From the NCBI RefSeq assembly GCF_004104375.1, contig NZ_QOVM01000003.1, forward strand, positions 186,001 to 250,000: a stretch of 64,000 nt of DNA, given 5' to 3'. This document shows positions 6,670-16,573 of the stretch, in pieces. Position numbers and translations under genes: made by a program. The notes beneath the pieces were generated by a model. It searched no databases. It saw nothing but the letters and a program-made list of their open reading frames with translations, and was not told the DNA's origin. Origin of the DNA: Leeuwenhoekiella aequorea (GTDB lineage Bacteria; Bacteroidota; Bacteroidia; Flavobacteriales; Flavobacteriaceae). Numbering within the stretch: the first letter of the stretch is position 1; every line of letters starts with the position of its first letter.

Positions 6670-7848
6670 TTAATAGGTAAACGTGCCAACAGTACTTTTA
6701 ATTGTTAACCTTTTTGAATCTGCAGATTCTACGCGTCCAATAATCTTGGCCTCAATATTAAAAGACTTTGAAATATCTATAATTTGCTGAGCTAATTGAG
6801 GATCTACATAAAGTTCCATACGGTGCCCCATATTAAAGACTTGGTACATCTCTTTCCAATTTGTACCACTCTCCTCTTGAATTAATTTGAATAGTGGAGG
6901 TAATTCAAAAAAATCATCTTTTATAATATGTAAGTTTTCTACGAAATGTAAAATTTTTGTTTGTGCACCTCCGCTACAGTGAACCATACCATGTAAAAGA
7001 TTCTTATCTACATCTTGTAGAATTTTTTTAATCACCGGCGCATACGTACGTGTCGGAGATAAAACCAGTTTACCGGCATCTAAAGGTGAATGAGCTACCG
7101 CATCTGTTAATTTTTTTGACCCGCTGTATACGAGATCTTCGGGAACAGCGTGATCAAAGCTTTCTGGATACTTTTTTGCAAGATATTTTCCAAAGACATC
7201 GTGACGTGCCGATGTAAGACCATTACTTCCCATCCCACCATTATATTCCTTTTCATAAGTTGACTGTCCAAAACTTGCCAGACCTACAATAACATCACCA
7301 GGCTTGATGTTCTTATTGTCTATAACATCCTCCCGTTTCATTCTCGCAGTTACTGTAGAATCTACGATAATAGTACGTACAAGATCTCCCACATCTGCAG
7401 TTTCACCCCCAGTACTATTAATAGTCACACCGTGATTTTTGAGATCTTCAATTAATTCTTCGGTACCGTTAATTATAGCAGAAATAACTTCTCCAGAGAT
7501 TAGGTTTTTGTTTCTACCAATGGTGGATGAAAGCAAAATATTATCTGTTGCTCCTACACATAGTAAGTCATCAACATTCATAATTAAAGCATCTTGTGCG
7601 ATCCCTTTCCATACTGATATATCCCCAGTTTCTTTCCAGTACATATAAGCCAGAGAAGATTTTGTGCCAGCACCATCTGCGTGCATAATTAGACAATGCT
7701 CCTCGCTTCCCGTAAGATAATCGGGTACAATTTTGCAAAAAGCCTGCGGAAACAGTCCTTTATCTACATTTTTAATAGCATTATGCACATCTTCTTTTCC
7801 TGCGGAAACTCCGCGATCTGCGTACCTCTTTGAAATCTCTTGGCTCAT
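6670..7848 (-). CDS. purM: Phosphoribosylformylglycinamidine cyclo-ligase (AIR synthetase)
   Basis: Converts formylglycinamidine ribonucleotide to aminoimidazole ribonucleotide with ATP in purine synthesis. The 392-residue length matches the longer Bacteroidota form. Recognisable parts are RYADRGVSAGKEDVHNAI at the N-terminus, HADGAGTKSSLAYMYW near residue 55, DALIMNVDDLLCVGATD near 85, NSTGGETADVGDLVR near 145, and HCSGGAQTKI near 290. Start is supported by a TACTTTTG box only 17 bp upstream. It is followed closely by the DUF3078 gene. Confidence 0.93.
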   Translation of the reverse strand: MSQEISKRYADRGVSAGKEDVHNAIKNVDKGLFPQAFCKIVPDYLTGSEEHCLIMHADGAGTKSSLAYMYWKETGDISVWKGIAQDALIMNVDDLLCVGATDNILLSSTIGRNKNLISGEVISAIINGTEELIEDLKNHGVTINSTGGETADVGDLVRTIIVDSTVTARMKREDVIDNKNIKPGDVIVGLASFGQSTYEKEYNGGMGSNGLTSARHDVFGKYLAKKYPESFDHAVPEDLVYSGSKKLTDAVAHSPLDAGKLVLSPTRTYAPVIKKILQDVDKNLLHGMVHCSGGAQTKILHFVENLHIIKDDFFELPPLFKLIQEESGTNWKEMYQVFNMGHRMELYVDPQLAQQIIDISKSFNIEAKIIGRVESADSKRLTIKSTVGTFTY

Positions 7849-7873: not shown

Positions 7874-7882
7874 AGAAATAAA

Positions 7883-7906
7883 AACGTCCTGATATTTCAG
7901 GACGTT
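7883..7906 (-). terminator. Terminator at the end of the curli operon
   Basis: The 10-bp arms AACGTCCTGA and TCAGGACGTT flank a 4-nt loop, and a T-rich stretch follows on the minus strand. It lies 27 bp beyond the last curli-operon gene and overlaps the purM promoter zone. Confidence 0.8.
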
Positions 7907-7932
7907 CTTAAGGTTGATTAGTTATTCAAAAA

Positions 7933-9456
7933 TTATTCTTCCCAGTCGGGCATAAAAGCATTTGTAAATAAAATATTATCTGAGGTATATTCGCTCAACG
8001 GACTAACCAAAACATTAGGTACAGAATTAATATTACTTGGTTTTCTAGTAAATATGATTGCTCCTTCAGAAGGGGACCATCGTGGTTGTATATCATTAGA
8101 TCCACTAACTGCTCCATTATCAAACAAACGCTCGACACCGGTATTTAAATCATAAATGAAAATTCTATTAGCAAATTGCCGATATTCATTATTTTGAGAG
8201 CCGGAAGTATCTTTAGAATATAAAAGTTGGGTCCCATTGGCATTTAAATCAATTCCCTTTACAGCACCCATCGCATTTTGAAAAATCACACGTTCTTCAG
8301 TTCCAGATGATAATCTAACGGTATAAACTCTCACATTATAGCCATCACTATTATTTGTTTTTAAAGCAATTAAATTATCGTCGAATTGGGACACGCTAAC
8401 CTCGGATATAAAACTACCATCGGTTGTTTTGTAAATTAAAGTACTTCCTCCACCATCAGGGTTTATACTATACAGTTTATCAAAATTAGGATAATACAGC
8501 TTACCTCCATTTTGAGCCCACGTATAGTCTATTTCATCAATTCTAAAGCCATTTACAGGAATGGTGCTTGTTACTTGCTTAACACCTGAACCGTCGAGAT
8601 TCATAGTATGCAATTGAGTGGCACCATTAACCGTTCTAAGAAATGCTATTTTTGAAGTTTCGTTATTTTTATGAGGTCTAAAGCTATTAAATGATTCAGA
8701 TGTTAGTTTAAACTCATTAAAGTTAACTTCAGCATCTTCTTCATTACTTGCATCTTTTTTATTGCCTGAGTAAATAACACTATTGCCATTAACAGACTTA
8801 ACATAGAAATAATTATTCTGCGGTGTGCTATTTGTGCTAAATTGGCTCACTGTACTTTGTACTTCACTGCTATCATCTGAAGCACTTACTTGCCAAAAAT
8901 AATTTGTACCTAAATTAAGATTCTCAATTGTTACGGTCGTATCTGCAACCACCTCTCTAGATATAATTTCATTAGTTGTACCGTTTCTTAGTTGAAATTT
9001 ATAAGTTATTTCATCGGTATCACTTTCTGAAGAAGACCAAATAAATTGGATATTAGGTTCTAAGTTTGATGCACCATCTGTGGGAGTCAACAGTTCCGGA
9101 ACTAACGGTTCTATATTATTAGTTTTACTTACTTCTAATTCAAAAACTACACTACTCGTCTCATTATTAAGTATGGATACAGCTTCAAAAGCATCCGCAT
9201 ATATATCGGATTCCGCTTGCACTGAATATTCTCCTACACTTATTGTTTCTATAACAAAATTACCAGATGCATCTGTAAATACTGTACTTGATGCGGGACT
9301 AGTTACAATTTTGATGTTTTCGAGTGGTGTATTAGTAGTTTTTGCAACAACGGTACCCGTTAGACGGCCAACTCCATTCTCCTCGATGGTATCTTCACTG
9401 CAACCTGCAAGAATAATAAGTGTGCTAATAATTAAATAAAATATTTTATTCTTCAT
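7933..9456 (-). CDS. Curli-operon lipoprotein: CarboxypepD_reg, Fn3-like and beta-propeller domains
   Basis: A 507-residue lipoprotein, with Cys19 of L-A-G-C as the lipid anchor. Residues 30-110 form a carboxypeptidase regulatory-like (CNA-B-like) beta sandwich. Residues 118-210 form a fibronectin III-like domain containing NLGTNYFWQVSASDDSSEVQ. Residues 215-505 contain repeated TolB/PD40-type blades, for example IAFLRTVNGATQLHTMNLDG, KLYSINPDGGGS and RIFIYDLNTGVERLF. It starts 4 bp after csgG and is the last gene before the terminator, so it is part of the curli transcript. E. coli curli operons have no such gene. I infer a surface scaffold, adhesin or fibre-binding role. Confidence 0.82.
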   Translation of the reverse strand: MKNKIFYLIISTLIILAGCSEDTIEENGVGRLTGTVVAKTTNTPLENIKIVTSPASSTVFTDASGNFVIETISVGEYSVQAESDIYADAFEAVSILNNETSSVVFELEVSKTNNIEPLVPELLTPTDGASNLEPNIQFIWSSSESDTDEITYKFQLRNGTTNEIISREVVADTTVTIENLNLGTNYFWQVSASDDSSEVQSTVSQFSTNSTPQNNYFYVKSVNGNSVIYSGNKKDASNEEDAEVNFNEFKLTSESFNSFRPHKNNETSKIAFLRTVNGATQLHTMNLDGSGVKQVTSTIPVNGFRIDEIDYTWAQNGGKLYYPNFDKLYSINPDGGGSTLIYKTTDGSFISEVSVSQFDDNLIALKTNNSDGYNVRVYTVRLSSGTEERVIFQNAMGAVKGIDLNANGTQLLYSKDTSGSQNNEYRQFANRIFIYDLNTGVERLFDNGAVSGSNDIQPRWSPSEGAIIFTRKPSNINSVPNVLVSPLSEYTSDNILFTNAFMPDWEE

Positions 9457-9460
9457 CTGT

Positions 9461-10897
9461 TTAATTTTTTGGGGATTTTACTTGAGAATCATCACTTAAA
9501 CCATCCTTCTTTTTATTTGTGAAATTGAAATAGTATTTGAGTCCCACTCCAAAATTGAAATAAAAATCATCACGCTTGCCATTAACGAGATTGTCTACCT
9601 TATCTGAAAATGTAATATTGTGTTCCCCCCAAATACGCATTCCTATTCTTGGAGAAATAGCATATTCTATCCCGGCGCCATATTGAACTTTAGCATCTGT
9701 TTGATCAGCATCGAGTCCTAAAAATCCATCATTTTCAAATCCGAATAGAATTCCGCCTCCCCCATATATATAGGGAGACAATTTATCATTACGCAACAAT
9801 CTAAACTCTGCGTTGAGATCTATACTTGCAAAACTTTCTTCAAAAGTACTACCCGTTTTAAATCTCATATATGCGCTGTTCACATTTAAACTCACGACCT
9901 CACTCAAACCAAGATTGTATCCTATTTTAGCCATAGGCCCAAAATGTGTATCACTATAATCTGCGTCAAGTAAAGAAGTCCCTAAGGAGAAATTAATTGA
10001 ATTCTTAAATTTTTGCTGAAAGAAAATTCTATTATAGATACCTGTAGATTCTGCTATTTCTTTTTCTGCATTATAATTAGCAACGACCTCCTCGTTAACC
10101 TGATTGCCACCTTTTGCTGACCAAAATCCGCCTTCTATACCTTCAACAATTAGATCGTGAACTGCTTTCTCTACAGCATCTTTTATAGCTAATTGTACCG
10201 GCTCATTACGTGTAATTCCCATCTCAGTTTCTAACAATCTTTGAAACTTCACAAAGCGAAAAAGACTGGCGTCTAAAGCTTGAGATAATATGGTTTTAGA
10301 TACATATACAGTTTTTAATATCTCACCATTGCTAGTTGATACCATTCTCAGGTATACCGTTATTCGATCTTGACGGTATTTTGCTGAACCTCCAAGTCCA
10401 AAATATCGCGCTCCTACTCCTCCGGTTATAATATTTGTATCATAAGATACGATACCTCCTTCTAATATAATTCCGGCATATTTAAGGGGTGGTAATGGTG
10501 GCTCGTTAGGATTAAGATTTTTAATATATTCCTGTTTAGTGTTCCGTATAATATTTCGTTCCGTAGAAAGATTACTTAAATTTTCACGTTCTATAGGAAT
10601 AAACCAGCCACTATCTTCTAAAGCTTTTAAGAGAATTGCTGTTGAGCCTTGGGTTACTGCAGTACTAAATGTACTTCCGTTTTCCACTGCTTTATATTGC
10701 CCTGTTTGATCACTAAAGTTGTAGACAGCAACTTCTACCGGGGATTGTGCGGGAGGTAATCCCAAAAGAGTTTTTGTCGATTTTGAATACTCTCCTAATC
10801 GTGCGGGAGTTTGATCAAATGGTTGATTAAAGTATGCTCCACACGATGAAAGTAGAAACACACTCATTAAGTAAAGTTGTAATTTGTAATACTTCAT
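9461..10897 (-). CDS. csgG: Curli secretion pore CsgG fused to a C-terminal beta-barrel
   Basis: Outer-membrane lipoprotein pore that exports curlin subunits, 478 residues against 277 in E. coli. Cys19 is the lipobox cysteine. Residues 50-265 follow E. coli CsgG closely: VYNFSDQTGQY, FSTAVTQGSTAILLKALEDSGWFIPIERENL, GGVGARYFGLGGS and TSKTIL-like VSKTILSQALDASLFRF. At the pore constriction Phe56 is kept (Phe77 here), but the positions of Tyr51 and Asn55 seem changed. Residues 290-465 add an OmpA-like barrel (FSLGTSLLDADYSDTHFGP, YIYGGGGILFGF, FYFNFGVGLKYYF). It is 6 bp downstream of csgF and 4 bp upstream of the terminal lipoprotein. Confidence 0.93.
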   Translation of the reverse strand: MKYYKLQLYLMSVFLLSSCGAYFNQPFDQTPARLGEYSKSTKTLLGLPPAQSPVEVAVYNFSDQTGQYKAVENGSTFSTAVTQGSTAILLKALEDSGWFIPIERENLSNLSTERNIIRNTKQEYIKNLNPNEPPLPPLKYAGIILEGGIVSYDTNIITGGVGARYFGLGGSAKYRQDRITVYLRMVSTSNGEILKTVYVSKTILSQALDASLFRFVKFQRLLETEMGITRNEPVQLAIKDAVEKAVHDLIVEGIEGGFWSAKGGNQVNEEVVANYNAEKEIAESTGIYNRIFFQQKFKNSINFSLGTSLLDADYSDTHFGPMAKIGYNLGLSEVVSLNVNSAYMRFKTGSTFEESFASIDLNAEFRLLRNDKLSPYIYGGGGILFGFENDGFLGLDADQTDAKVQYGAGIEYAISPRIGMRIWGEHNITFSDKVDNLVNGKRDDFYFNFGVGLKYYFNFTNKKKDGLSDDSQVKSPKN

Positions 10898-10903
10898 AAA
10901 TGA

Positions 10904-11311
10904 TTATTGATTTGGGACAATTACCTGGGTTTGTTCTCCAGTAGATGTATCTAGAATATTAATTACTAAGCCTTCTTCACTTTCAAAGACTTCCACAGCC
11001 AGAGAACCATAAGTGAAGGTTCCTTCTTGATCAAAGTTGCCAATCCCATCGATTTGTTGTTGAAGTAGTGTTCTTGAAATCTGACTTAACAATTGACGGT
11101 TTAGATTATCACCAAACTCTTCTAATTCCGATTGTTGTTCAGATTCATTTCGAGGGGCGGTATGACCATTTTGTGCCGAAGCCGAACTTAGCATCCAAGT
11201 ATAATTAAAAGTATCTCCCCCAAATGCTGGATTTATAGGCTTATACGAAAACTGTTGAGAGAATACACTTGCAGAGCTAAATAGCAATAAAAAAAGTAAA
11301 CATTTTGTCAT
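10904..11311 (-). CDS. csgF: Curli assembly factor CsgF
   Basis: Secreted 135-residue protein that in E. coli sits in the CsgG pore and couples secretion to nucleation. A signal peptide ends at about residue 19 (SVFSQ). The mature N-terminus FSYKPINPAFGGDTFNYTWM has the CsgF pattern NPxFGG that inserts into CsgG. SASAQNG and the C-terminal EEGLVINILDTSTGEQTQVIV match the E. coli protein in order and spacing. One bp separates it from csgE. Confidence 0.93.
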   Translation of the reverse strand: MTKCLLFLLLFSSASVFSQQFSYKPINPAFGGDTFNYTWMLSSASAQNGHTAPRNESEQQSELEEFGDNLNRQLLSQISRTLLQQQIDGIGNFDQEGTFTYGSLAVEVFESEEGLVINILDTSTGEQTQVIVPNQ

Positions 11312-11312
11312 A

Positions 11313-12089
11313 TTAATATCTTATAAATTCATTTTTTCGCTGATCAAGTTCTTGGAGATAGGCAATTGATCTATTTAATGCGATTGACGCATTTCTAATT
11401 AAAAATGCTTTTCTGGGTTGAGCAAAAAATTGCCAAACTAATTGGTCTGCTACAAATACAGAAATACGTGTGTTTATTCCTCTACCAGGAACTTCTTCTA
11501 TTAAGATATCTTTAGAGGATCTAATTTGTTTATTAAAATATTCAGAATAAAAATATCGGTAAAAATCTTTGCCTGCTTTGGTAATTGTATTTTCAAGAAC
11601 GAAACCATCCATGACAAAACCATCTGAAGGTGCCGCTTGATCTTCATTTGACACAGCCATCTGAGTATCCTTTTTAAGAGCGCTTAAATCGGTTTGCCCT
11701 CCATTTTCTAATACTATGCGGTCTTGACCGAGTGGCTTATCATCAAGGTCATAAATTATGAGAACTATAATAGTTTTATTACTTACACTGTAATTTACAG
11801 TTATAGAAGGGAGAATTAACTTCTGATGAGCCTCAATAAAGATCCGATCAGATTTATTTTCTTTGGTAATTTGTCCATCAGATTCTGTAGTAAAAAGTAA
11901 GAGGTCATACTTTAAATTAAAGTCTGTATTTGTAAGGTTTTCAGCTGTACCTATAAAATTATAGAATTCACTATTTTTTTCAATTAATACTTCTGCTTTA
12001 ATTTCTTTATTTATAAACTGACTAAATCCCAATAAAGGGATTAAAGTAATACTAAATATAATTAGGTATTTGGGGGTACTTAAAAACAT
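11313..12089 (-). CDS. csgE: Curli chaperone CsgE with N-terminal CsgH-like domain
   Basis: Periplasmic curli accessory protein, 258 residues, about twice the length of E. coli CsgE. The signal peptide ends near residue 24 (LLGFSQ). Residues 27-130 form a beta-rich domain with NLTNTDFNLKYDLLLFT and LGQDRIVL, like CsgH of alpha-proteobacterial curli systems, where CsgH blocks premature amyloid formation. Residues 156-256 are CsgE: GFVLENTITKAGKDFYRYFY, IEEVPGRGINTRISVFVADQ and FLIRNASIALNRSIAYL align with the E. coli protein. The CsgH assignment is by pattern and less certain than CsgE. Gap to csgB is 9 bp. Confidence 0.88.
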   Translation of the reverse strand: MFLSTPKYLIIFSITLIPLLGFSQFINKEIKAEVLIEKNSEFYNFIGTAENLTNTDFNLKYDLLLFTTESDGQITKENKSDRIFIEAHQKLILPSITVNYSVSNKTIIVLIIYDLDDKPLGQDRIVLENGGQTDLSALKKDTQMAVSNEDQAAPSDGFVMDGFVLENTITKAGKDFYRYFYSEYFNKQIRSSKDILIEEVPGRGINTRISVFVADQLVWQFFAQPRKAFLIRNASIALNRSIAYLQELDQRKNEFIRY

Positions 12090-12098
12090 TTTATTCTA

Positions 12099-12635
12099 TT
12101 AATTAATACTTCTCACAATAAGATTTGGCGAAGCTTCAGTTTGCGAAAATTTTAAAGTTTTAGTAAGTTCGTTCGCATTATCTCTTATAAAATTTAAATT
12201 ATTTCCTTGTTGCGAAAGTTCAAGTGATACATCAAGTGATACATTATTAATATTATCAATAATTGTATTTGAATTTCCTCGCTGTTTAATATTAGCATAA
12301 GCTGTTCTAGCAGTATAGTCAAGATTTGTAATATTGTAGCTACCATCTTGTAGTATTGTTATGGAACTATTTGCAGTATTAGTATTGACTGTTGAATCAT
12401 TATATGATCCTATTTGGGTTAGAAAAACTGAATTTCCTTGAATATTTTTTAAGTTGACATTTGATTCAAATGCTCCTCCTAATGACTCCATTAATGCTTT
12501 AGGATCTGTATTAGATTGATTGGGATCTATATAAGTTTGGCTAGTTATAACTGGTAAAGTAATTAATGACAATAACATATAATTTAAAAAACAGAAATTA
12601 AGTTTGCATTCTCGAAGTTTGATTGTATGTATCAT
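12099..12635 (-). CDS. csgB: Minor curlin / nucleator, CsgB-like
   Basis: Secreted 178-residue protein with a few degenerate curlin repeats: GNSVFLTQIGSYNDSTVN, SITILQDGSYNITNL, AYANIKQRGNSNTIIDN and VSLELSQQGNNLNFIRDN. These give the alternating pattern with Q-x-G-x-x-N turns that builds the curli beta-helix. The N-terminus is long (hydrophobic LNYMLLSLITLPVITSQ after a charged stretch), and Met20 is a possible alternative start. Its position between csgA and csgE and its low repeat count suggest the surface nucleator rather than the main fibre subunit. Confidence 0.8.
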   Translation of the reverse strand: MIHTIKLRECKLNFCFLNYMLLSLITLPVITSQTYIDPNQSNTDPKALMESLGGAFESNVNLKNIQGNSVFLTQIGSYNDSTVNTNTANSSITILQDGSYNITNLDYTARTAYANIKQRGNSNTIIDNINNVSLDVSLELSQQGNNLNFIRDNANELTKTLKFSQTEASPNLIVRSIN

Positions 12636-12664
12636 ATTTAATTTATTTACAATTATTTAAATAA

Positions 12665-12694
12665 GAAAGGGCGTGTTTTGATGCACACCCTTTT
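12665..12694 (-). terminator. Intercistronic hairpin between csgA and csgB
   Basis: On the minus strand GAAAAGGGTGTG pairs with CACGCCCTTTC around an 8-nt loop, with one mismatch, and is followed by CTTATTT. It lies about 32 bp after the csgA stop. It is a weak terminator or RNA stabiliser that would leave csgA mRNA in excess over csgB-G. Confidence 0.55.
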
Positions 12695-12725
12695 CTCTTT
12701 TTAACTACTAATATTCTTCAACGTA

Positions 12726-13967
12726 TTAGTAACCTGATGGTGTCATTTGAGTTTCAGGAGTCGTATCTAAACTTCCTTGACCTGCAAAATTTTCTTGTAA
12801 AGTTGTTATAGAATTATTTCCGCCACCACCTTGAGTGTAAGTTGCAGAATGACCATTACCAAACTGAGATATTATAGCAGAACCCTGAGACCACTTTTGA
12901 GTTAAATTAATTTTATGGTCAGAACCTTCTTGATAAAGATCTGCATATTGGCTATAACCTGACTGATCTACATTTACCATGTTGTTATCTCCAAACTGGT
13001 GTACAAATGCTTCTTGACCTCTAGTCGTTTGCTTAACAGTTGCTTTGTTATCAGATCCATCTTGAAGAACTTCAGAGTAACTACCCGGATCACCATAAGG
13101 ATCAATACTTTCTTGAGTAACATTAGCATTGTTACCAGTAGAACCCATTTGATGTACAATAGCCACATCTCCACTTCCTGATGTCAAATCAACGTCATCC
13201 CCGGTTTGAGTAACTTTTGCAGTGTTATCATCAGAATCTTGGTAAACATAAGCCTCAGCATAATTATTATCCTGCAACACTGTTGCTTTATTGCCTTGAG
13301 TCTTAATTTGTTCAACAATAGCTAAGTTATCCATACCAGTTGTGCTTATTGTAGCCATGTTTTTAACACCGGCAACTGCGTAAGATTCCTGATTTACACG
13401 AGCTTTATTTCCAGTACCAGTTTGGTCTACATCCGCCTCGTTTCTAGGAAAATTTGCATTAGGTGCAGAAGGTTGATTTGGCTTTCCTACTTGGGTAACT
13501 TTCGCTTGGTTGCTATCACCTGTTTGCATTACATCTGCCTTACTCTGGTCATATGTTTGCTTTACTGTAGCAGTGTTACCTGTTAAAACATCAGATGATC
13601 CAGATTGAGTTACTTTAGCCCAGTTTCCTACCGCTGCCATACCTGTACCTTGAATGATAGTAGACTTGTTTCCAAGATCATCCTGATCAACATAAGCCTT
13701 GTTAAAAGATCCTCCTTCCTGTGTTGCAGCAGATACGTTTTTCTCACCTACTTGATCAACTTTCACAAGGTTACTTGCACCAAATTGAGTTGACACAGAA
13801 TTATTTGCTGTTCCATTTTGTGTAAGATCGGCATTGTTCATTGTTCCTGCTTGATAAGCATGTCCAACGTTTGAACTTCCAGTTTGGGTACCTGTAGAGG
13901 TATTTTGCTGTGCAAAAGCAACAGCCCCGATCATTAGCGCTGCTGCGCTTAATACTACTTTTTTCAT
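12726..13967 (-). CDS. csgA: Major curlin subunit, large CsgA-like amyloid protein
   Basis: Secreted amyloid subunit. The start is placed at 13967 because MKKVVLSAAALMIGAVAFAQ is a clean Sec signal peptide; a longer frame extends 18 residues upstream without one. The 413-residue product has roughly 17 curlin-type repeats of 20-25 residues with the core N-x-A-x-V-x-Q-x-G-x-x-N, for example NKATVLQ, NQAKVTQVGKPNQ, NMVNVDQSG and NKATVKQT. E. coli CsgA has 5 repeats in 151 residues. Several repeats have insertions rich in Asp, Ser and Pro, so strand turns should vary in length. First gene of the curli operon. Confidence 0.92.
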   Translation of the reverse strand: MKKVVLSAAALMIGAVAFAQQNTSTGTQTGSSNVGHAYQAGTMNNADLTQNGTANNSVSTQFGASNLVKVDQVGEKNVSAATQEGGSFNKAYVDQDDLGNKSTIIQGTGMAAVGNWAKVTQSGSSDVLTGNTATVKQTYDQSKADVMQTGDSNQAKVTQVGKPNQPSAPNANFPRNEADVDQTGTGNKARVNQESYAVAGVKNMATISTTGMDNLAIVEQIKTQGNKATVLQDNNYAEAYVYQDSDDNTAKVTQTGDDVDLTSGSGDVAIVHQMGSTGNNANVTQESIDPYGDPGSYSEVLQDGSDNKATVKQTTRGQEAFVHQFGDNNMVNVDQSGYSQYADLYQEGSDHKINLTQKWSQGSAIISQFGNGHSATYTQGGGGNNSITTLQENFAGQGSLDTTPETQMTPSGY

Positions 13968-14389: not shown

Positions 14390-16573
14390 TTATCTCAAAT
14401 TGAGTAATTCTCTGTTCTTTGCAAGAGGCCAAAGCTTATCTTCTACTAATAATTCTAATTTATCTGAAGCATATCTAATTTTGTTAAAATATGGAATTAC
14501 TAATTCGTTATACGATTTAGCTCTATCCTTTATATCTAGTAGATTTGCTTCTTTTCTTACAGCTATCATCTCTGTGATTGCCTCGTTAACAATTTTTAAA
14601 TAAGAAGATATTTGCTCAATTATATTTAGCTGTTCACTGGCCATAGTTTTATAATCTCCTTCAAAAATTTCTTTTAAACCTTTTACATTCTTAATCAATA
14701 AATTTTGATATCTTATTGATGTAGGAATTATATGATTGCGAGCCATATCTCCCAGGACTCTACTTTCAATTTGAACTCTCTTAATATATTCTTCAATTTC
14801 AATTTCATGTCGTGCTTTGAGTTCGATAGAATTCATAACATCCATTTCTTCAAATAAGGATAATGTCTGCTTAGCTAATTGAATATCTAAAGCTTGTGGT
14901 GTCGTACGATTATTGCTAAGTTTACGCTTTTTTGCTTCAGCTTCCCATTCCTTACTATAACCATCTCCTTCAAAGCGTATTTTCTTTGATGCTTTAATAT
15001 ACTCACGAAGAATATTGAAAATAGCATCATCCTTCTTCATACCCTTACTTTCTATAAGTGTATCAACTTCGACTTTGAAATCTTTTAATTGCTTTGCTAC
15101 AATTGTATTTAAAACAACCATTGGCTTTGCACAGTTGGCTGTTGAGCCGACTGCTCTAAATTCAAATTTATTACCTGTAAAGGCAAATGGAGATGTTCTA
15201 TTACGGTCTGTATTGTCTAACAAAATTTCGGGGATCTTACCCACAACATTGAGTTTTAGATCTGTCTTCTCTTGCGGAGATAATTTTCCATCTGATACTT
15301 TTTCTAACTCATCAAGTACCTTCGTTAATTGTTTTCCGATAAAAACAGACATTATTGCCGGTGGTGCTTCATTTGCCCCTAATCGATGATCATTGGAAGC
15401 AGATGCCACAGAGGCTCTTAATAATTCTTCATGATCTTGAACTGCTTTAATTGTATTTATAAAGAATGTAAGAAACTGGAGATTCTTCATAGGAGTACTA
15501 CCGGGGCTCAACAAATTGACTCCGGTATCTGTTGCCAGTGACCAGTTGTTATGTTTTCCGCTACCGTTAATACCTGCAAATGGTTTTTCATGAAATAAAA
15601 CCTTGAGTTTATGTCGGTCAGCTACACGTGCCATTAGATCCATAATCAATGAATTATGATCGACTGCTAAATTTGCCTCTTCAAAAATAGGTGCCAACTC
15701 AAATTGGTTTGGTGCCACTTCATTGTGTCTGGTTTTTACCGGAATTCCAAGAAGCATACACTGCTGCTCTAGATCCTTCATAAAATTTAAAGCTCTAGAA
15801 GGTATGGATCCAAAATAATGATCATCTAACTGCTGTCCTTTTGCAGGTGCGTGACCCAGCAAGGCCCTTCCTGTTTGCATAATATCTGGTCGGGAAGCTG
15901 CTAATGCCGCATCAATGAGAAAATATTCTTGTTCCCATCCCAAAGTTGCAGTCACTTTAGTTACCGACTTATTAAAGTATTTTGCAACTTCTGTAGCAGA
16001 ATTATCAATGGCATTTAGCGCTCTTAGTAATGGAGTTTTGTTATCTAAAGCCTCACCTGTGTACGAAACAAACACAGTAGGTATACACAAAGTCGTATCT
16101 AAAATAAATGCTGCAGATGTAGGATCCCAGGCGGTATAACCGCGTGCTTCAAAAGTATTGCGAATTCCACCATGTGGAAATGAGGAAGCGTCTGGCTCTT
16201 GTTGAACCAGCTTTGCACCTTCAAATTTTTCAATGGCACTTCCATCAGACAAACTTTCAAAAAAGGCATCGTGCTTTTCTGCTGTTGCACCTGTTAGAGG
16301 TTGAAACCAATGTGTATAATGAGTTGCTCCTAAACTAATTGCCCATTGCTTCATTCCGGCAGCAATACTATCTGCCATCAATCTATCAATCTTAGAACCT
16401 GTATTTATTGCATCTTGAACAGCTTCAAAAGCATCACTAGAAAGAACCTGACGCATAGCTTGTTTCCCAAAAACATGCTTACCATAAAGTGCAGATCTGC
16501 GCTCATTTTCTTCAATAACTACTGGTTTTCTTGAAAGACTTTCTTTCAGTGCAAAAAATCGTAAAGTATTCAT
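14390..16573 (-). CDS. glnN: Type III glutamine synthetase
   Basis: Makes glutamine from glutamate, ammonia and ATP. The 727 residues match the type III (GlnN) length. The N-terminus FALKESLSRKPVVIEENERRSALYGKHVFG is the type III signature region. Metal and substrate motifs follow in order: RHNEVAPNQFELAPIFEEAN near residue 280, GINGSGKHNNWSLATDTG near 335, NDHRLGANEAPPAIMSVF near 395, and NRTSPFAFTGNKFEFRAVGS near 460. The C-terminal 200 residues are helical, as in this type. It diverges from a type II enzyme across a 201-bp spacer. Confidence 0.95.
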   Translation of the reverse strand: MNTLRFFALKESLSRKPVVIEENERRSALYGKHVFGKQAMRQVLSSDAFEAVQDAINTGSKIDRLMADSIAAGMKQWAISLGATHYTHWFQPLTGATAEKHDAFFESLSDGSAIEKFEGAKLVQQEPDASSFPHGGIRNTFEARGYTAWDPTSAAFILDTTLCIPTVFVSYTGEALDNKTPLLRALNAIDNSATEVAKYFNKSVTKVTATLGWEQEYFLIDAALAASRPDIMQTGRALLGHAPAKGQQLDDHYFGSIPSRALNFMKDLEQQCMLLGIPVKTRHNEVAPNQFELAPIFEEANLAVDHNSLIMDLMARVADRHKLKVLFHEKPFAGINGSGKHNNWSLATDTGVNLLSPGSTPMKNLQFLTFFINTIKAVQDHEELLRASVASASNDHRLGANEAPPAIMSVFIGKQLTKVLDELEKVSDGKLSPQEKTDLKLNVVGKIPEILLDNTDRNRTSPFAFTGNKFEFRAVGSTANCAKPMVVLNTIVAKQLKDFKVEVDTLIESKGMKKDDAIFNILREYIKASKKIRFEGDGYSKEWEAEAKKRKLSNNRTTPQALDIQLAKQTLSLFEEMDVMNSIELKARHEIEIEEYIKRVQIESRVLGDMARNHIIPTSIRYQNLLIKNVKGLKEIFEGDYKTMASEQLNIIEQISSYLKIVNEAITEMIAVRKEANLLDIKDRAKSYNELVIPYFNKIRYASDKLELLVEDKLWPLAKNRELLNLR

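Follow-up and report, generated by a model that had tools for sequence, protein, structure and literature searches.

A six-gene locus in the flavobacterium Leeuwenhoekiella aequorea raises the question of how far a curli system can be rearranged and still remain a curli system. Curli, the sticky fibres of amyloid found in bacterial biofilms, are made via type VIII secretion. They serve as the model functional amyloid, and their mechanism is known nearly entirely from the Enterobacteriaceae. We analysed a window of 64,000 nucleotides (contig NZ_QOVM01000003.1, positions 186,001 to 250,000), of which an earlier note had claimed a complete curli operon with three peculiarities: a single chain that holds a CsgH-like and a CsgE domain, a CsgG with a barrel, and an additional lipoprotein of six domain classes. 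The note read these features as an unusual merger of functions in this genome and as an incompletely described system.

All six genes are present at 7933-13967 on the minus strand, as the note had placed them. In window coordinates, from upstream to downstream, the locus comprises the following features:

12726-13967, minus strand: csgA, major curlin subunit, 413 aa, with a Sec signal peptide
12666-12693, minus strand: terminator-like intercistronic hairpin between csgA and csgB, AAAGGGTGTG-loop-CACGCCCTTT, then CTTATTT
12099-12635, minus strand: csgB, candidate minor curlin or nucleator, 178 aa
11313-12089, minus strand: csgE, 258 aa, with a CsgC/CsgH-related domain at about 24-135, a flexible linker at 143-155 and the CsgE domain at 156-258
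10904-11311, minus strand: csgF, 135 aa
9461-10897, minus strand: csgG, 478 aa, with the lipoprotein pore subunit at 50-261 and an extra C-terminal outer-membrane barrel domain at 297-457
7933-9456, minus strand: sixth gene, a lipoprotein of 507 aa, with a carboxypeptidase-regulatory-like domain at 32-108, an FN3-like domain at about 118-208 and a propeller at 214-507
7879-7910, minus strand: intrinsic terminator ending the operon, with a 14-bp stem and a fold z of -6.8

The intergenic gaps, in order from csgA to the lipoprotein gene, measure 90, 9, 1, 6, and 4 bp, which confirms the spacing of 1-10 bp claimed downstream of csgB. csgG is single: the genome holds no second CsgG. A sigma-70 promoter scan was uninformative (28 sites versus 29 expected), and no TAnnTTTG box was found directly upstream of csgA. 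The operon is flanked by a 727-codon frame upstream (14390-16573, minus strand) and a 392-codon frame downstream (6670-7848, minus strand) that starts 84 bp past the operon; flanking frames of near-equal length stand beside the operon in many loci of the family, which suggests a long-standing, stable site.

Are these truly curli genes? Searches against the curli profile families answer for most of them well above the Pfam cut-offs: CsgG at 4.6e-64 (216 bits versus a cut-off of 20.8), CsgF at 1.4e-32 (113 bits versus 25.8), and CsgE at 1.2e-14 (54.9 bits versus 25), the last over residues 160-249 only. CsgA matches Curlin_rpt at 1.6e-40 in 10 stretches, and a motif list counts at least 14 repeats of the Q-x-G-x-x-N type. 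The repeat is weak in CsgB, where Curlin_rpt (0.0012; 19.2 bits) falls below its cut-off of 20.7; the protein matches the NCBIfam models for CsgA (1.8e-8) and CsgB (1.1e-4), and the position of its gene is conserved among the loci of the family. Judged by the defining genes tested, the locus is a real curli operon, with CsgB its least firm member, and the encoded system very likely works like curli.

CsgE occurs in 42 of 199 genomes of the family and in 10 of 13 genomes of the genus, and nearly all curli loci of the Flavobacteriaceae show the order A-B-E-F-G-lipoprotein. The order is thus conserved, as the note had proposed to check, and the notion of a merger peculiar to this genome falls away, since the six-gene order, an extension of CsgG (38/38) and the lipoprotein (42/42) are all family-wide. 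In other classes the design is less uniform: either the chaperone domain is encoded on its own, or LysM replaces it. One genome of another class carries three CsgE loci on a single contig (G400:C1; L042, L059, and a third place). The E. coli system (csgBAC-csgDEFG) has in common with the present one the CsgA/B repeats, CsgE, CsgF, and CsgG. Unlike E. coli, L. aequorea has one operon with no csgD, csgA precedes csgB with a hairpin between them, the chaperone is fused to CsgE, CsgG has an extra barrel, and there is an extra lipoprotein.

The hairpin between csgA and csgB is strong in the window (fold z -3.74). All 47 family loci tested (L068-L107 and L133-L140) likewise have a strong hairpin in this gap, with z < -2 throughout and a median of -4.7; the sequences differ, and T runs follow many of the hairpins in the manner of a terminator. 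The terminator scan that located this hairpin and the operon terminator gave an overall site count no higher than in shuffles. The hairpin is possibly a partial terminator that sets an excess of the subunit: it would allow csgA mRNA to outnumber the mRNA of the export genes.

What is the domain ahead of CsgE? For the window protein, Pfam and NCBIfam alone give no identification of the N-domain, only a chance match. The AlphaFold2 model (48 sequences; pLDDT 89) shows a seven-strand sandwich at about 28-130, then a disordered linker, then the CsgE fold; its pTM of 0.53 is too low for a firm statement on the mutual arrangement of the two domains. The C-domain (157-257) superposes on CsgE 2na4 with a VIA-align Z of 11.1. 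In a Foldseek search of 350,542 PDB chains, the N-domain places CsgH of R. palustris at rank 1 and CsgC of E. coli at rank 2, with VIA-align Z scores of 11.8 over 95 residues for CsgC and 10.6 over 98 for CsgH. Ig-like domains of unrelated proteins (GH2 enzymes, transglutaminases) reach the same structural Z, so that fold alone does not suffice for the identity of the domain, and sequence decides. When the alignment profile of the N-domain, which includes a few LysM rows, is run against all PDB sequences, CsgC comes first (6.9e-8) and CsgH third (0.013). Furthermore, the domain occurs as a stand-alone gene near csgB in Hymenobacter, Pontibacter, Adhaeribacter, and Bacteroidales, and these relatives are recovered again with a profile built from Flavobacteriaceae only. 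Two stand-alone copies exceed the curated Pfam cut-offs: one for CsgH (2.4e-9; 37.5 versus 27 bits) and one for CsgC (7.9e-7; 29.5 versus 25 bits).

In fold, in sequence profile, and in the place of its relatives beside csgB, the domain resembles the amyloid inhibitors CsgH and CsgC (PDB 2n59, 2xsk; PMC4838910). It differs from them in being fused to CsgE, in lacking a cysteine pair, and in being acidic. CsgC and CsgH are described as having a cysteine pair, either CxC (CsgC) or distant (CsgH), and as being about 2 pH units more basic than CsgA (PMC4838910). The window N-domain contains no cysteine, 140 of 147 fused domains contain none, and its pI of 4.57 lies close to the 4.41 of CsgA, not about 2 units above it. 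The charge difference of CsgC and CsgH is thus not seen in this domain, and the inhibition by charge demonstrated for CsgC does not necessarily extend to it. For the same two reasons, we name the domain CsgC/CsgH-related and do not file it as CsgC or CsgH.

The absence of cysteines and the acidic pI, together with the equal scores of the GH2-enzyme and transglutaminase domains, would also suit an Ig-like module of a generic kind, which serves to stabilise CsgE and has nothing of a CsgC/CsgH-type amyloid chaperone. We consider such a module quite unlikely: CsgH and CsgC head the entire structural search, CsgC leads the profile search of the PDB, and the stand-alone relatives adjoin csgB and match the Pfam families of CsgH or CsgC. 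The claim of a CsgH-like and a CsgE domain in one chain is therefore upheld, with the N-domain as a CsgC/CsgH relative. Variations on the architecture are also found. In L109:5548-6297 (plus strand), L116:8980-9738 (minus strand), and others outside the class, CsgE bears an N-terminal LysM that replaces the CsgC/CsgH-like domain, and LysM is present in 6 of 21 divergent CsgE rows. At L100:5104-6300 (plus strand) and L181, CsgE is about 398 aa long and its chaperone domain is apparently duplicated. A stand-alone chaperone-domain protein of Bacteroidales (L214:6517-6936, plus strand) has one cysteine near each end, which is of CsgH type and unlike the fused forms.

The csgE of the window is a plain fusion, with no run of the A10 type. 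In Flavobacterium, 92 of 399 genomes searched bear CsgE, and in 40 of these 92 the chaperone and CsgE domains lie in different frames (among loci L184, L197, L201, L202, L204, L217, and L233-L276; the 46 loci count some genomes under two names). The junction is exactly A10 followed by G in 39 of the 40, and A12 in one. Its phase is constant (xAA-AAA-AAA-AAG): the CsgE domain is in the -1 frame and the zero frame closes within 34 bases, such that a message with A11 would restore the csgE frame in 40 of 40. Several of these genomes are single-contig. Runs of at least 9 A or T are found elsewhere in the split loci at 0.12 per kb. On the tree, which shows four changes, the split genes fall into deep groups. 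Purifying selection acts on both sides of the junction, and it is strong on the downstream CsgE domain (dN/dS 0.069 when split, 0.054 when fused).

Several explanations of the split genes were considered. Decay into pseudogenes is rejected by the dN/dS of the split genes. Independent translation of the downstream frame is unlikely, as no signal peptide precedes the domain. Downstream RNA hairpins are weak as frameshift stimulators (median z -1.07; 11 of 40 below -2), which speaks for slippage of RNA polymerase rather than for ribosomal frameshifting driven by a hairpin, without deciding between them. Slippage of bacterial RNA polymerase on at least 9 A or T is established, for example in dnaX of Thermus (PMC5009743). 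Programmed slippage that yields both a free chaperone and a chaperone-CsgE fusion is the likeliest reading of these frames, and one we hold to be reasonably probable. No paper on a frameshift in csgE of Flavobacterium was found in a literature search that covered few subscription papers.

The pore protein is also extended. CsgG has the lipobox LSSC, and behind its pore region Pfam detects an OMP_b-brl domain at 297-457 (1.5e-8). A C-terminal extension is present in 38 of 38 aligned relatives, with OMP_b-brl detected in 28. On the basis of Pfam and the alignment, CsgG carries an added C-terminal barrel, as had been claimed. Likeness of this part to the barrel PorG of the type IX secretion system (T9SS) is weak (7.5e-6, far below the cut-off).

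The sixth protein has the lipobox LAGC, followed by S-E-D-T. It was claimed to be a lipoprotein of six domain classes; it has instead three types of domain, and six is the number of propeller blades. CarboxypepD_reg is found by Pfam at 5.7e-10 and is present in 42 of 42 relatives. In the AlphaFold2 model (pLDDT 90), the six-bladed propeller is of the TolB type, with a Z of 26.2 to TolB 1crz (2.8 Å, 253 residues). Nothing beyond this fold is common to the two: the protein scores 24.7 bits where the cut-off of the TolB equivalog is 343.

Does this protein belong to the curli system at all? Within the family, the full-length protein is present in 42 of 42 CsgE-positive genomes and in 0 of 157 CsgE-negative ones (full-length calls at E <= 4.3e-189; the next match, at 6.2e-22, covers one module). 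With phylogeny ignored, this co-occurrence has a log10 p of -43. In the phylum sample, the 16 genomes with the lipoprotein are all among the 29 with CsgE; the other CsgE carriers, for the most part from other classes, encode a shorter protein or lack it. csgG stands alongside the lipoprotein gene in 78 of 80 loci from named genomes; of the remaining two, L205 is cut by a contig end, and at L224 no csg gene lies closer than about 7 kb. A neighbour of unrelated function, merely co-transcribed with a plain curli operon, would fit with carboxypeptidase-regulatory, FN3, and propeller modules being common in Bacteroidota (every genome has single-module matches) and with the fact that a biochemical link to curli is not known. 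It is rendered very improbable by the strict sorting of the full-length protein with CsgE, and by a linkage kept across orders despite changes in csg order, as in the Hymenobacter arrangement E-F-G-A-B-chaperone-lipoprotein. The additional lipoprotein of the earlier note is thus borne out, and its distribution over genomes marks it as an obligate component of curli in the family and as one specific to that system.

On which side of the outer membrane does the lipoprotein lie? An acidic motif close behind the lipid cysteine, with two or more acidic residues in positions +2 to +6, is present in 25 of 28 of these lipoproteins versus 0 of 29 CsgG. The window protein has C-S-E-D-T, a polar residue and then two acidic ones, as in surface-export signals. 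The signals SDDDD and SDDFE, the latter from F. johnsoniae, work in Capnocytophaga (PMC5080379), and on this likeness we assign the sixth protein a probable place at the cell surface. The propeller itself could point elsewhere. It comes closest to TolB, and PorE/PG1058 of the T9SS joins a propeller to a carboxypeptidase-regulatory fold (PMC5053529); both are cell-envelope propeller scaffolds, and the lipoprotein could be one too, facing the periplasm beneath the CsgG pore with no role as a surface anchor. This placement is unlikely, though less so than an unrelated neighbour: the polar-acidic-acidic signal is absent from CsgG, the score against the TolB equivalog is far short, and Pfam finds no TPR or OmpA_C domain of the PorE kind in the window lipoprotein or among the families listed for its 42 relatives. 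The lipoprotein further differs from PorE and TolB in its domain order and in its tie to curli. A surface position is accordingly the reading we retain.

How much of this design has been described? The curli of Bacteroidetes in Dueholm 2012 (PMC3521004) and in a 2025 update (PMC12822426) likewise combine CsgA/B and CsgEFG without a separate csgC or csgD. The former lists csgA-H, with the Bacteroidetes lacking csgC and, with one exception, csgD; the latter counts clusters of CsgA/B plus CsgEFG and reports curli as widespread in Bacteroidota. Term searches of the two papers brought up neither the CsgE extension nor the CsgG barrel nor the lipoprotein. Taylor 2016 (PMC4838910), searched in the same way, notes a CsgH subgroup in Bacteroidetes and does not state a fusion there. 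Term searches of Sleutel 2023 and of a 2016 review gave nothing on these features; across the curli surveys and reviews searched by term, few of them subscription papers, only CsgA/B, C, D, E, F, G, and H are named. The claim of an incompletely described system thus stands in so far as this body of text goes: it yielded no description of the fusion, the barrel, or the lipoprotein for Bacteroidota. The locus is a family-wide curli variant in which at least one obligate component, to judge from this text, appears undescribed.

Taking the genes, domains, order, obligate co-occurrence, signal motif, and hairpin as the sequence gives them, we infer the binding steps, the orientation of the lipoprotein, and the roles of the hairpin and the barrel. 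A type VIII secretion operon of Bacteroidota type that works by the following steps is, in our judgement, likely. CsgA and CsgB would use Sec to reach the periplasm. In the CsgE protein, the CsgC/CsgH-related domain would hold CsgA unfolded, and the CsgE domain of the same chain would cap the nonameric CsgG pore, such that chaperoning and delivery are handed over inside one protein. CsgG would form the pore, and its extra barrels would ring it with nine small outer-membrane barrels. CsgF would connect CsgB with the exit of the pore. Positioned on the outer face, the sixth protein would most likely tie CsgF, CsgB, or the fibre as it grows to the cell.

A wider proposal is, in our estimate, evenly balanced between right and wrong: that the curli of Bacteroidota are a distinct subtype with an obligate, unnamed surface lipoprotein, and that many Flavobacterium set the ratio of free chaperone to pore-capping fusion by programmed slippage on A10, where the unslipped message would give the chaperone domain alone and the slipped one the fusion. 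The frameshift in Flavobacterium, if programmed, would be an uncommon example of an amyloid chaperone under the control of recoding. With a sixth component that is obligate, and with an amyloid chaperone naturally fused to a pore cap, the system would reveal the steps of amyloid export that are open to rebuilding.
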